From NCBI RefSeq assembly GCF_000189535.1, contig NC_015145.1:1-64000 (forward strand): 64,000 nucleotides of DNA, read 5' to 3'. Positions 1 through 19,335 of this stretch are shown piece after piece. The translations under genes and the position numbers were made by a program. The notes beneath the pieces were generated by a model, which made no database searches, was not told the origin of the DNA, and saw nothing but the letters and a program-made list of their open reading frames with translations. Every line of letters starts with the position of its first letter. Position 1 is the first letter of the stretch. This DNA comes from Pseudarthrobacter phenanthrenivorans Sphe3. Its GTDB lineage: Bacteria; Actinomycetota; Actinomycetes; Actinomycetales; Micrococcaceae.

Positions 1-394
1 TGTATATGCACGCTTCCCCCGGCTGCTCAAACGCACTGCGCCTGAGAGATTCAGATGGGGCCAAAAAGCGGACACAAAGGACTTCACAACGTTAGGGCAA
101 AATGAGCCGCCGAGTCAAACCGGCGCAGGGCTCAACGGTTGTCCCCAGCTGTGCCTAACCTACCCCTCGAACCTGTGGATGAAGTGGCTCACAAGGCCGT
201 TTTCAGAACAACACCGGTGTAATTATCCACAAGCTACTTGCCAGCTATCTTCTAGGCTTTTCATCCCCTAGAGTGGCCCAGTAGCCGATTATCCACGTGC
301 TGTGTATAACCCTGTGGATGAAGCTGAACCAGAGGCTGGTTCCGCGCTTGCGGCTGCAGGCAATGCAGGCAAAGCAAGTTGAGGGAACCGATTG
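1..394. other. dnaA upstream region, left part of the origin
   Basis: No gene fits here. The stretch carries DnaA-box-like 9-mers: a perfect TTATCCACA at 223-231, TTATCCACG at 289-297, TGTGTATAA at 301-309 and TGTGGATGA at 174-182 and 313-321. In this group of bacteria rpmH normally reads leftwards from just outside such a window, so part of this stretch is probably its promoter; that is inference, because rpmH itself is not in the window. The boxes close to dnaA are consistent with DnaA autoregulation. Confidence 0.7.
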
Positions 395-16399: not shown

Positions 16400-17275
16400 A
16401 TGAGTTACGGAATTCCGTCGGCTGAGCCGTCCGCGCAGGTTCCTGTGTGCCCACGGCACCCGGACCGGCCCTCCTACGTGCGCTGCCAGCGGTGCGGGCG
16501 CCCTGCGTGCCCCGATTGCCAGCGGGCGGCCGCCGTCGGATTCCAATGCGTTGACTGCGTCAACGAGGCACAACGCACGACGCCGGAAGTACGGACCGTC
16601 TATGGCGGCGCCGTGGCCACCGGCAAACCCATGGTGACGTTCGGGATCATCGCCGCCTGTGCAGTCCTTTACGTCCTGCAATGGGTCATCCCGTCGGATG
16701 CCGTCTTCCGGAACCTTGCGTTCGCATCTGTCTATGCCACCCCGGAGTACGGGGCATTCGAACCGTGGCGGATGCTTACCGCGGCGTTCCTGCACTCCCA
16801 GGGGTTCATTCTCCACATTGTGCTGAACATGTACATGCTGTGGATTTTCGGCCAGGCACTTGAGCCGCTCCTGGGCCGCGTGCGGTTCCTTGCCGTTTAT
16901 CTGCTCTCGGCCATTGGCGGTTCAGTGGGCTACCTTGCCCTGACGCCGATCCTCCCGCCTGGAGGCCCGGTGGGGGTGGTTGGTGCGTCTGGTGCCATCT
17001 TCGGACTCTTCGGCGCAATGCTTCTGGTGCAGCGCCAGCGTGGCGGTGACACCCGTCAGCTGTGGGTCTTGATCGCCATCAATGGCGTGATAGGTTTCCT
17101 GATCCCCCAGATTGCCTGGCAGGCCCACCTTGGCGGACTCATCACCGGCGCGCTGTGCGCAGCCGTGGTGGCCTATGCCCCACGTGGCCGGCGGCAGGGG
17201 CTTCTCCAGGCTGCCGGGCTTCTGGCCGTCCTTGTGCTCCTGATAGCCGTCAGCTGGGTCAGGGTATCCCTGTAG
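16400..17275 (+). CDS. Rhomboid-family intramembrane serine protease with N-terminal zinc finger
   Basis: The 291-residue protein begins with a B-box-like Cys/His cluster (C17, H20, C29, C32, C37, C40, C50, C53), then six to seven membrane helices. The catalytic serine is in GASGAIFG (S197) and the catalytic histidine in AHLGG (H243); the HS..H..NMYMLW segment supports the oxyanion region. Such Zn-finger rhomboids are common in actinobacteria; substrates are unknown. ATG 16400 lies nine bases behind the cyclophilin stop, consistent with an operon. A terminator follows at 17311. Confidence 0.92.
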   Translation: MSYGIPSAEPSAQVPVCPRHPDRPSYVRCQRCGRPACPDCQRAAAVGFQCVDCVNEAQRTTPEVRTVYGGAVATGKPMVTFGIIAACAVLYVLQWVIPSDAVFRNLAFASVYATPEYGAFEPWRMLTAAFLHSQGFILHIVLNMYMLWIFGQALEPLLGRVRFLAVYLLSAIGGSVGYLALTPILPPGGPVGVVGASGAIFGLFGAMLLVQRQRGGDTRQLWVLIAINGVIGFLIPQIAWQAHLGGLITGALCAAVVAYAPRGRRQGLLQAAGLLAVLVLLIAVSWVRVSL

Positions 17276-17310: not shown

Positions 17311-17350
17311 GAAGACCCCGGCGTCCTGAGGACGTCGGGGTCCTTCTTTT
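17311..17350 (+). terminator. Terminator after the rhomboid gene
   Basis: GACCCCGGCGTCC (17314-17326) and GGACGTCGGGGTC (17330-17342) pair with one mismatch, followed by CTTCTTTT. AAGGACC is mirrored by the other strand, so it could also work in reverse. Confidence 0.8.
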
Positions 17351-17800
17351 CCACAGGGCTTATCCACAATGTTGGTAACTTACACGCCTGTAGTTCGACC
17401 TGCAGCAGGACCAAAGTCCCGGAACGGCGGGCTGTTTCCCCAGAAAACGTCGTTTTTCTCCACACCTGTGGAAAACTTCTGGGGAAATGGGTGTGCTTAA
17501 GTGGACAACCGCCCTTCTCCAGGGCCTTCTGTGGATAACAAGGGCAAATCGGCCTTGATCCGGCTGTGGACGCCCCTCGTGGCGCCTGCTATCAACAACG
17601 TTATGCACACTGTTAATAAACAACAGCGGTGTAGTTTTAGGCCTTCCGCAAGGCTGGTTCGCAGCACCCGGGCCACGAACGCCTTCTCCCGCGCAAGAAG
17701 TATCCACACCTGTGGATAACTTGTGGGTATCGCGATGTTGGTAAGTGGATAAGCTTCACTTGATCACCGTTTGGCGCACTATCGCTTTTTTCCACAGGAG
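17351..17800. promoter_or_regulatory. DnaA-box cluster A, upstream of the AhpD-like gene
   Basis: This gene-free 450-bp stretch has three perfect DnaA boxes: TTATCCACA at 17360-17368 and TGTGGATAA at 17530-17538 and 17711-17719. Single-mismatch boxes are GTATCCACA at 17700-17708 and AGTGGATAA at 17744-17752. TTATGCACA at 17601-17609 and weaker TCCACAG-type matches also occur. The 9-mer TGTTAATAA, also found in oriC, is at 17611-17619. The density is comparable with oriC itself. It may titrate DnaA, resemble datA or DARS, or control the adjacent gene. Confidence 0.8.
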
Positions 17801-17805
17801 AGTCA

Positions 17806-18273
17806 ATGACCCCGACCACCAAGCACATCTTCCTCGATAAACAGCACCCCGTGCTGTGGCGGGCACTGAATGGACTGGGGCTCAAGCTCAAGGAAGCGGC
17901 TCAGGAAGCGGGTATCGACACAAGGACGATGGAACTCCTGAACGTGCGCATATCCCAGCTCAACGGCTGCGCCTACTGCCTGGACCTCCACGTGAAGGAA
18001 GCAGTCGAGGCCGGCGAAACACACCAGAGGCTGGCTGTACTACCTGCCTGGCGTGACACGTCATTGTTCACCGAGAAGGAGCGCGCTGCCCTGGCACTGG
18101 TGGAAACCATCACGGAACTGCCCGGGCACAACGTGCAGGAGCATGAGGAAGGTTTCGCCAGGAAACACCTCACGGAGGAGGAATTCTCGGTGGTCAGTTG
18201 GCTGGCCATCACCATGAATGCCTTCAACCGCATCTCGATCACCAGCCACCACCCGGTCCGCCGGAAACGGTAG
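17806..18273 (+). CDS. Carboxymuconolactone-decarboxylase / AhpD-like protein
   Basis: This 155-residue all-helical protein carries the AhpD-type redox motif with C55, C58 and H62 in NGCAYCLDLH, as in alkylhydroperoxidase-like members that relay electrons through a thiol pair. It probably detoxifies peroxides or shuttles thiols, but the substrate is unknown. ATG 17806 has GGAG at 17796-17799. It is unusual in being enclosed by DnaA-box clusters on both sides. Its last codons lie in a tandem duplication of 18 bp that also duplicates the stop. Confidence 0.88.
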   Translation: MTPTTKHIFLDKQHPVLWRALNGLGLKLKEAAQEAGIDTRTMELLNVRISQLNGCAYCLDLHVKEAVEAGETHQRLAVLPAWRDTSLFTEKERAALALVETITELPGHNVQEHEEGFARKHLTEEEFSVVSWLAITMNAFNRISITSHHPVRRKR

Positions 18274-18294
18274 TCACGCCGGAAACGGTAGTCA
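18259..18294. repeat. 18-bp perfect tandem duplication at a stop codon
   Basis: CGCCGGAAACGGTAGTCA occurs twice back to back (18259-18276 and 18277-18294). The TAG in the first copy ends the AhpD-like gene; the second copy repeats it outside the frame of use. Confidence 0.85.
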
Positions 18295-18300
18295 CAGAGC

Positions 18301-18440
18301 CACCGGTTATCCACAGGTCTTCCACATTGTTAATAACCGCATCCGCGGTGCCAGTTTGGACTGGGGGCAGGGTGGCGGTGCTGCGAACGAAGCGGCGGCC
18401 GTGAGCTTCCGGTCCTTATCCACAGTGTGGATAACTTTCC
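18301..18440. promoter_or_regulatory. DnaA-box cluster B, downstream of the AhpD-like gene
   Basis: This stretch holds three perfect DnaA boxes: TTATCCACA at 18307-18315 and 18416-18424, and TGTGGATAA at 18426-18434. The last two form a 19-bp palindrome around G18425. The 9-mer TGTTAATAA is at 18328-18336. The stretch lies between convergent genes (AhpD-like and tag), so a promoter function is unlikely, which favours a DnaA-binding or titration role. Confidence 0.8.
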
Positions 18441-18473
18441 CAACAGCTGGGGAAAAGCCCCTCCGCGTGGATG

Positions 18474-19079
18474 TCAGGCCGGCCAGACTCCGGAGGAGCC
18501 ACGCCGGTGGCTCCCCACCAAGTGGGTGTCCACCATGCCGATGGCTTCCATCAGGGCAAACATGGTGGTGGGCCCGACGAAGGCGAAGCCCCTTTTCCTG
18601 AGGGCCTTGGAGAGGGCGATGGATTCCGCCGACTGGGTAGGAACGTCTGCGTGGACCTCGGGGCGTGGTGTGACTGCAGGCTGGAACTGCCAGACGAAGT
18701 CCACCAGGCCGCCGTCCTGCCGCAATGCCACGGTAGCCCGGGCATTCTTTACGGCAGCCTGGATTTTCATCCGGTTCCTTACGATGCCCGGGTCCTGCAT
18801 GAGCCGCTCAACGTCATGTTCGGTGAACAAGGCAACAGCATCAGGGTCGAAGCCGATGAAGGCGGCCCGGAAGGCCGGGCGTTTGCGCAGGATGGTTGCC
18901 CACGAAAGGCCGGCCTGGAATCCCTCGAGGCAGATGCGTTCGTAGAGGCCCTGTTCGTCCCGAACGGGAAGGCCCCACTCGTTGTCGTAATAATCCCGCA
19001 TCAGGGGATCGGTGGACGCCCAGGCCGGGCGGGCCAGTCCGTCCGGGCCCACCAGGACACCGGATGGGTCAGGCGCCAT
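18474..19079 (-). CDS. tag: DNA-3-methyladenine glycosylase I
   Basis: Tag removes 3-methyladenine from alkylated DNA, starting base-excision repair. The 201-residue protein shows the family segments YYDNEWGLPV, LYERICLEGFQAGLSWATIL, FVWQF and SKALRKRGFAFVGPTTMFALMEAIGMVDTH. Compared with my recollection of the E. coli enzyme, the zinc ligands look altered: the His of YHDNEWG is Tyr here, and the N-terminal Cys and C-terminal Cys are absent, so it may lack the structural zinc. It reads minus, next to crgA. Confidence 0.9.
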   Translation of the reverse strand: MAPDPSGVLVGPDGLARPAWASTDPLMRDYYDNEWGLPVRDEQGLYERICLEGFQAGLSWATILRKRPAFRAAFIGFDPDAVALFTEHDVERLMQDPGIVRNRMKIQAAVKNARATVALRQDGGLVDFVWQFQPAVTPRPEVHADVPTQSAESIALSKALRKRGFAFVGPTTMFALMEAIGMVDTHLVGSHRRGSSGVWPA

Positions 19080-19083
19080 GCTT

Positions 19084-19335
19084 TTATGAACGCCAGCGGG
19101 TGGTCATCAGGAACCCGATGATGGCGATCCCGAAGCCGGCGACGATGTTCCACGACTCCCATGCCTGGACGGGATAGCGTCCTTCGCTGATGTAGAACGT
19201 GATGATCCAGAAGAGGCCGATAATCATCAGTCCGAACATGACCGGCTTGAACCAGACCGGGTTGGGCTTGTACGTCTGGGAAGAAGCCGGCTGGGCGGTG
19301 CTGGCAGTCTTCTTGCGAGGCTTTGACTCGGGCAC
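19084..19335 (-). CDS. crgA: Cell division protein CrgA
   Basis: CrgA is a small actinobacterial membrane protein that links FtsZ and penicillin-binding proteins to the septum. This 83-residue protein has a Lys/Ser-rich cytosolic N-terminus, the core KPNPVWFKPVMFGLMIIGLFWI (first membrane helix, about 26-49) and a second helix near 64-80 ending in RW. The gene lies between tag and the divergent sortase gene, as in other Micrococcales near pabA/pknB. Start is ATG 19335. Confidence 0.93.
   Translation of the reverse strand: MPESKPRKKTASTAQPASSQTYKPNPVWFKPVMFGLMIIGLFWIITFYISEGRYPVQAWESWNIVAGFGIAIIGFLMTTRWRS

Follow-up and report, generated by a model that had tools for sequence, protein, structure and literature searches.

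A repeated unit of DnaA boxes and a palindrome between the rhomboid and crgA genes of Pseudarthrobacter phenanthrenivorans Sphe3, with counterparts across Actinomycetota

The first 64,000 nucleotides of contig NC_015145.1 of Pseudarthrobacter phenanthrenivorans Sphe3 (hereafter the window) contain a dense cluster of DnaA boxes in the gene order ppi, rhomboid, cluster, tag, crgA. The boxes are arranged in repeated units, X, each trailed by a group, Y, of boxes of inverted orientation. A unit X consists of a box, 3-4 nt, a second box, about 1 nt, an inverted weak box (TGTTRRTAA), and finally a palindrome resembling TTACACNNGTGTAA. Among the window's units, X1 is complete, X2 is degenerate, and X3 is without a recognisable palindrome. 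Cluster A lies 5' of an AhpD-domain gene and cluster B lies 3' of it. Bit scores refer to two models: R1, a sequence-only unit model built from 26 sequences, and R2, a composite model of 44 sequences that include X1. Identities to the window come from an alignment of 13 relatives that carry the AhpD gene.

16400..17275, + strand: rhomboid protease gene (Pfam Rhomboid), the left landmark
17347..17397, + strand: unit X1 (R1 57.8 bits; R2 33.9 bits, the genome's best; mean identity 0.87 over the 13 relatives)
17347-17355, 17360-17368 and 17370-17378: boxes of X1, respectively TTTTCCACA, TTATCCACA and the inverted weak box TGTTGGTAA
17380-17393: palindrome of X1, TTACACGCCTGTAG
17456..17538, unstranded: group Y1, with TTCTCCACA at 17456 (+), TTTTCCACA at 17467 (-) and a perfect box at 17530-17538 (-)
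17497-17508: TTAAGTGGACAA, which contains a weak inverted box of Y1
17588..17636, + strand: unit X2 (R1 44.3 bits; identity 0.78), with a weak box, TTATGCACA at 17601-17609 and the inverted weak box TGTTAATAA at 17611-17619
17630-17636: TGTAGTT, the end of the degenerate X2 palindrome
17700..17752, unstranded: group Y2, with GTATCCACA at 17700 (+), a perfect box at 17711-17719 (-) and TTATCCACT at 17744 (-) (identity 0.85)
17788..17796, + strand: one-mismatch box TTTTCCACA, immediately 5' of the AhpD-domain gene
17806..18273, + strand: AhpD-domain gene, within the cluster and dispensable for it
18305..18339, + strand: unit X3 (R1 19.3 bits; identity 0.85), with a perfect box at 18307-18315, TTCCACA, and the inverted weak box TGTTAATAA at 18328-18336; the palindrome is unrecognisable
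18416..18456, unstranded: group Y3, with two perfect boxes face to face (18416-18424, +; 18426-18434, -) plus CCAACAGCTGGGG (identity 0.87)
18474..19079, - strand: tag, DNA-3-methyladenine glycosylase I, which separates the cluster from crgA
19084..19335, - strand: crgA, cell division protein (Pfam CrgA), the landmark of the locus across the phylum

Within Y1, the stretches 17456-17477, 17494-17507 and 17530-17538 have mean identities of 0.84, 0.85 and 0.87. We had considered TGTTAATAA as a separate palindromic site; this was dropped because TGTGGANAA takes that place in other families, and the sequence is now read as a weak DnaA box in inverted orientation.

An earlier, sequence-only reading had described a DnaA-box locus here, and most of its counts hold. 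All six perfect TTATCCACA boxes are present (17360+, 17530-, 17711-, 18307+, 18416+, 18426-), and the at least two single-mismatch boxes it noted grow to seven one-mismatch boxes within 17347-17796. The genes on either side of cluster B, the AhpD-domain gene (+) and tag (-), are indeed convergent. The dnaA-dnaN interval has the two perfect boxes it counted (1851-, 2032+), and there is a third 5' of dnaA (223+). GC content was measured as 64.8%, not near 66%. Its expectation of 0.1 perfect box per window is about right by base composition (0.13 with the measured GC content). Across the genome, however, boxes show an over-representation of about tenfold, which makes roughly 0.5 the fairer figure. 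That reading saw a DnaA-binding locus beyond promoter control, and missed both the repeated unit with its palindrome and the anchoring to crgA and rhomboid, which reaches well past the genus.

The genome-wide count it called for gives 41 perfect boxes in 4,535,320 bp, versus 4 matches to a reversed control pattern. Six of the 41 are packed in 1.1 kb, and box density elsewhere is far below that of the locus. Given the box frequency in the rest of the genome, a stretch of 1,075 bp should contain 0.008 perfect boxes, and the probability of at least six is about 4e-16.

Another group of boxes was found about 8 kb upstream of dnaA, where a parS array near parB (C1:4242061-4242445; L031:11562-11946) contains four perfect DnaA boxes in 0.4 kb. 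L031 has 7 exact parS sites (GTTTCACGTGAAAC). At least two perfect boxes occur 8-9 kb from dnaA, on the side of the parS array, in 8/8 relatives examined.

The cluster is conserved within the genus. A search with the rhomboid protein led to 24 same-genus genomes, and the region was examined in all of them. Counting boxes at the same site in relatives, as the earlier reading proposed, gave at least three perfect boxes 3' of the rhomboid gene, within about 2.1 kb, in 24/24 genomes. The AhpD gene was detected in 13/24 and is absent in 11/24, and boxes are retained in all 11 relatives that do not have it. In the 13 aligned relatives, identity to the window is 78-87% for the elements, versus 37% for the remaining positions of cluster A and 29% for those of cluster B; judged from the alignment, this is the pattern expected of selection on binding sites. 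The third unit was recognised through its GTTAWTAA motif in 19/24 relatives. A scan with the exact pattern, which shows positives only, returned 78 records, all named Arthrobacter, Pseudarthrobacter or Micrococcaceae bacterium.

In the window's genome R1 has three matches at E below 0.01, all at this locus; the weaker matches include the oriC stretch 1836-1870. At E<=0.01 the model matches 212/245 genomes and 30/32 genera of the family, in a sample where two genomes (the window's own and G001) had supplied model sequences. The order sample gave 37/198 genomes, 15 of the 37 being Micrococcaceae. In 20 regions picked from the family and order matches the boxes are 3' of the rhomboid gene, including those of families f4, f6 and f8. 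A fixed distance from dnaA was rejected as a defining feature, since the unit goes with rhomboid and crgA. For example, L098 (G103) has dnaA, dnaN and the gyr genes inverted with respect to ppi-rhomboid, and the DnaA boxes are still beside rhomboid. Ten loci belonging to other families in the order (L026-L030; L062, L064-L068; partly overlapping) gave no perfect box in the roughly 3 kb 3' of rhomboid; some of these families carry the composite with other box letters (e.g., G025).

Across the class, the gap 3' of crgA carries the same parts. CrgA was found in 141/148 class genomes, and we examined 68 non-Micrococcaceae genomes, 28 with the best CrgA scores and 40 chosen to spread over families. 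In 47/68 genomes and 21/30 families the box TTRTCCACA occurs in the first 450 bp beyond the crgA stop. In total, these stretches of 30,434 bp contain 67 such boxes (0.40 expected), and the remaining 384,240 bp of the loci contain 5. A palindrome with at most 2 mismatches to TTACACNNGTGTAA was found in 31/68 gaps versus 0/802 control windows; allowing 3 mismatches, the figures are 55/68 and 11/802. The composite (a box 31-34 nt before the palindrome) is 3' of crgA in 54/68 genomes and 26/30 families versus 5/752 control windows, counts that describe the pattern and do not test it, because the thresholds were chosen after the pattern had been seen. None of the genomes of f46, f50 and f53 has the composite.

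Whole-genome searches with R2 point to the same place. The best match is at the crgA/rhomboid locus in 14/16 genomes, and in 8/10 of those that contributed no sequence to the model (G243 was counted by its place 3' of rhomboid, crgA not being located there). One exception is G472, in which the best composite is about 0.2 kb 5' of gyrB (L289:6459-6510), 9 kb from crgA, and the crgA gap has no box. The other is G538, where the whole-genome R2 search gave no good match. In G547 a second composite is located beyond gyrA, at a distance of about 2.3 kb (L291:6121-6174).

In the phylum sample R2 matches 170/296 genomes at E<=0.01. Outside the class we hand-picked 15 strong matches (E 1e-10 to 1e-6); crgA adjoins the element in 11 of these loci, its 3' end facing the element from 7 to about 360 bp away. 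These crgA calls are weak tblastn matches (36-59 bits), and 8 of the 11 are backed by sortase, pabA, pknB or other neighbours from the region. In the remaining 4/15 picked loci crgA was not found. The architecture, conservation and place of the locus are matters of direct observation in the sequence.

The unit has a mycobacterial counterpart. In a genome of family f22 it is between crgA and an open reading frame with a PH domain (bPH_6), and its palindrome is about 54-67 bp 5' of that frame. The corresponding interval in M. tuberculosis is that between Rv0010c and Rv0011c, the second of which we take to be crgA. According to the available passages of PMC7738170, Rv0010c-Rv0011c is among the five top DnaA-bound regions by IDAP-seq, and chromatin immunoprecipitation sequencing (ChIP-seq) in M. 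smegmatis recovered homologues of those five regions; DnaA binding at the mycobacterial site is thereby published both in vitro and in vivo. The same passages report recurrent changes at Rv0010c-Rv0011c; most of them affect a small palindrome, located 65 bp 5' of Rv0010c, that the authors read as two DnaA-like boxes. Variants of the site produce longer cells, like dnaA variants (PMC7738170). We take the f22 unit and the Rv0010c-Rv0011c site as the same because their placement and palindrome distance agree.

Like the mycobacterial site, the window has boxes and a palindrome at fixed spacing, 3' of crgA in the interval between ppiA/rhomboid and crgA, although X2 is weaker and X3 is without the palindrome. 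Mycobacterial-type loci have one unit, whereas the window has about three over 1.1 kb, which enclose the AhpD gene and are separated from crgA by tag. The available passages of PMC7738170 do not describe the element beyond mycobacteria.

The palindrome also occurs away from the locus. One to three copies per genome of TTACANNNNTGTAA are present in 16/16 genomes, and it is at the locus in 8/16. In the window, part of the composite precedes dnaA:

206..231, - strand: partial composite (palindrome core plus the perfect box 223-231), 5' of dnaA (R2 19.1 bits)

A copy in the window's genome, TTACACGCGTGTAA at C1:1282347 (L256:2048), precedes a WhiB-family gene by about 100 bp, and the palindrome is also beside the homologous gene in G084 and G243. 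Three f22 genomes have a copy near acetyltransferase and Glp/MoeA-type (divisome) genes. The WhiB and Glp/MoeA calls are based on profile searches with one representative of each.

That the palindrome is also used separately from boxes points to a second protein as its binder, and the published mycobacterial reading points to DnaA. BldD was provisionally set aside as a binder on grounds of spacing. MtrA was rejected, given that its motif, in the published account as available, is a direct repeat.

We consider it likely that the locus is an ancient DnaA-binding control site outside oriC that sets the availability of active DnaA, similar in role to datA or DARS, and that it has been enlarged in Micrococcaceae. 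The patch beside crgA is probably an old, little-studied replication switch. A site that is conserved, rich in boxes and independent of particular genes, and whose mycobacterial variants mimic dnaA variants, is best accounted for by control of DnaA activity or availability. The window's locus is predicted to bind DnaA and thereby to control DnaA activity. DnaA may load on the strong box, with the second direct box and the inverted weak box at fixed distance. The adjacent palindrome may bind a second protein or may itself be a special DnaA dimer site. The complex would set the amount of active DnaA for oriC. In a datA-like mode it would retain or inactivate the protein, and in a DARS-like mode it would reactivate it. 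The form with one unit beside crgA is probably old, and Micrococcaceae have probably multiplied it to about three units.

Several observations weigh against this interpretation. The window's genome has three exact palindrome matches, none of them at the locus, where the copies are degenerate. The composite thresholds were set post hoc, and the composite is uneven among families: in f23, f32 and f47 the gap is devoid of TTRTCCACA (0/9) and the composite persists with weaker boxes, f35 is without a composite (0/3), and f37 has boxes in 5/5 genomes and the composite, weakly, in 1/5. In the available passages of PMC7738170, the initiation rate is unchanged in the dnaA mutants, and the authors leave the mechanism open, naming titration and nucleotide exchange as possibilities.

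The sequence-only reading had offered a datA-like site, a DARS-like site or an accessory origin. The first two are both plausible, cannot be told apart by sequence, and are given about equal weight here. The longer cells of the mycobacterial variants resemble those of weak dnaA alleles, which favors a reactivating, DARS-like role. By contrast, the B. subtilis and S. coelicolor clusters repress. One of the S. coelicolor clusters (H69) may be the crgA gap.

The best-studied devices that limit replication to once per cycle (datA; DARS with IHF and Fis) come from E. coli. datA acts through IHF-dependent hydrolysis of DnaA-ATP, and DARS sites promote the exchange of ADP for ATP on DnaA. As described in the available parts of PMC8682772 and PMC5295017, DARS1 and DARS2 are likewise non-coding groups of boxes outside oriC in opposing orientations. 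The DARS core has three boxes, I and II being opposed; each X unit has two direct boxes and one inverted weak box, with a spacing and sequence that differ from those in E. coli. Tandem boxes facing an inverted one also occur in the E. coli stretch read in L273. DARS sites are far from oriC in those accounts and the window's locus is oriC-proximal. Variants of the mycobacterial site resemble reduced-activity dnaA alleles, as would the loss of a reactivating site such as DARS.

The E. coli datA, in the portions of PMC5295017 and PMC5742627 consulted, is likewise about 1 kb with several high-affinity boxes outside oriC, and it requires IHF. The window's locus also has several putative high-affinity boxes outside oriC, six of them perfect as counted by sequence. 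B. subtilis has oriC-proximal DnaA-box clusters as well (Okumura 2012, via PMC5295017 and PMC5742627); these are six separate clusters, and the excerpts report strong early initiation only with all six removed. S. coelicolor has an actinobacterial box cluster (Smulczyk-Krawczyszyn 2006, via PMC5742627 and PMC4585315). The datA-like clusters of both organisms repress untimely initiation according to the reviews, as far as their available text goes (PMC5295017, PMC5742627, PMC4585315).

A bolder version, which we put forward tentatively and regard as possible, is a phylum-wide DnaA switch of its own kind in Actinomycetota. DnaA and a second conserved regulator would sit side by side at crgA, and the palindrome of this regulator, which also precedes dnaA and genes related to division (WhiB family, Glp), would tie DnaA activity to division. 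Multiplication of the unit would have raised the dose in Micrococcaceae.

The strongest rival, which we consider unlikely, is a site coupling replication with division or segregation, where DnaA and a second, palindrome-binding protein would report origin firing to the division machinery or help to organise the origin region, DnaA activity itself being left unchanged. It would explain why the unit stays beside crgA, a cell-division gene, across the phylum. The palindrome copies by the WhiB-family gene (in the window's genome and two family members) and by the Glp gene (in three f22 genomes) fit such coupling, as does the placement of the second oriC-proximal box group in a parS array. In Micrococcaceae, however, the cluster stays by rhomboid, with tag intervening before crgA, and the palindrome's links to other genes rest on few sites because there are only one to three copies per genome.

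Less probable still is that DnaA at this site regulates or terminates transcription of the neighbors (AhpD, rhomboid, tag, crgA or the mycobacterial PH-domain gene), or insulates them. One box is immediately 5' of the AhpD gene, and in the f22 genome the unit is 5' of the PH-domain gene. However, cluster B and the class-wide position are at gene 3' ends, and expression of Rv0010c and Rv0011c was unaltered in M. tuberculosis dnaA mutants in the available passages of PMC7738170. Control of the AhpD promoter as the main role is refuted, because boxes stay in the 11/24 relatives without that gene. The earlier claim that promoter control alone is insufficient is supported both by those relatives and by the mycobacterial counterpart, a published DnaA site.

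In 20 aligned genomes the dnaA-dnaN interval (1820-2100) has TTATCCACAGTTTCCACA...TTATTAACACTACTAAT in near-invariant form and then a stretch rich in A, an order that, by its sequence, looks like an origin-unwinding arrangement. The best 40-mer is 65% AT in cluster A versus 72.5% in dnaA-dnaN. GC skew, which the earlier reading proposed to check, was computed over the window and its flanks, from -200 to +224 kb; it is very weak, with no clear switch at dnaA, and too weak to decide. That the locus is an accessory or former replication origin is very improbable: its oriC-like tandem boxes followed by TGTTAATAA (which is also beside the dnaA-dnaN boxes) and a 50-mer at 17590 within the window's least stable 0.1% would suit one, but the dnaA-dnaN origin is intact and near-invariant and has the least stable 50-mer of the window (at 2052), and the unit of most other families is just one short composite.

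Control loci of DnaA boxes outside oriC are already known, as is the mycobacterial site (PMC7738170). In the open-licence literature searched we found no account of the phylum-wide extent, of the fixed box-palindrome composite, or of the multiplied Micrococcaceae form, and nothing on this point joining crgA with DnaA boxes; searches on Micrococcus and Arthrobacter likewise gave nothing on this locus.

Little is known of how actinobacteria restrict replication to one round per cycle, and the composite provides a defined piece of DNA for that question. It is short, it is found beside crgA across the phylum, it is a proven DnaA target in mycobacteria, and it is enlarged threefold in a harmless and culturable soil genus. 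The locus also points to a candidate partner protein that may bind the palindrome.
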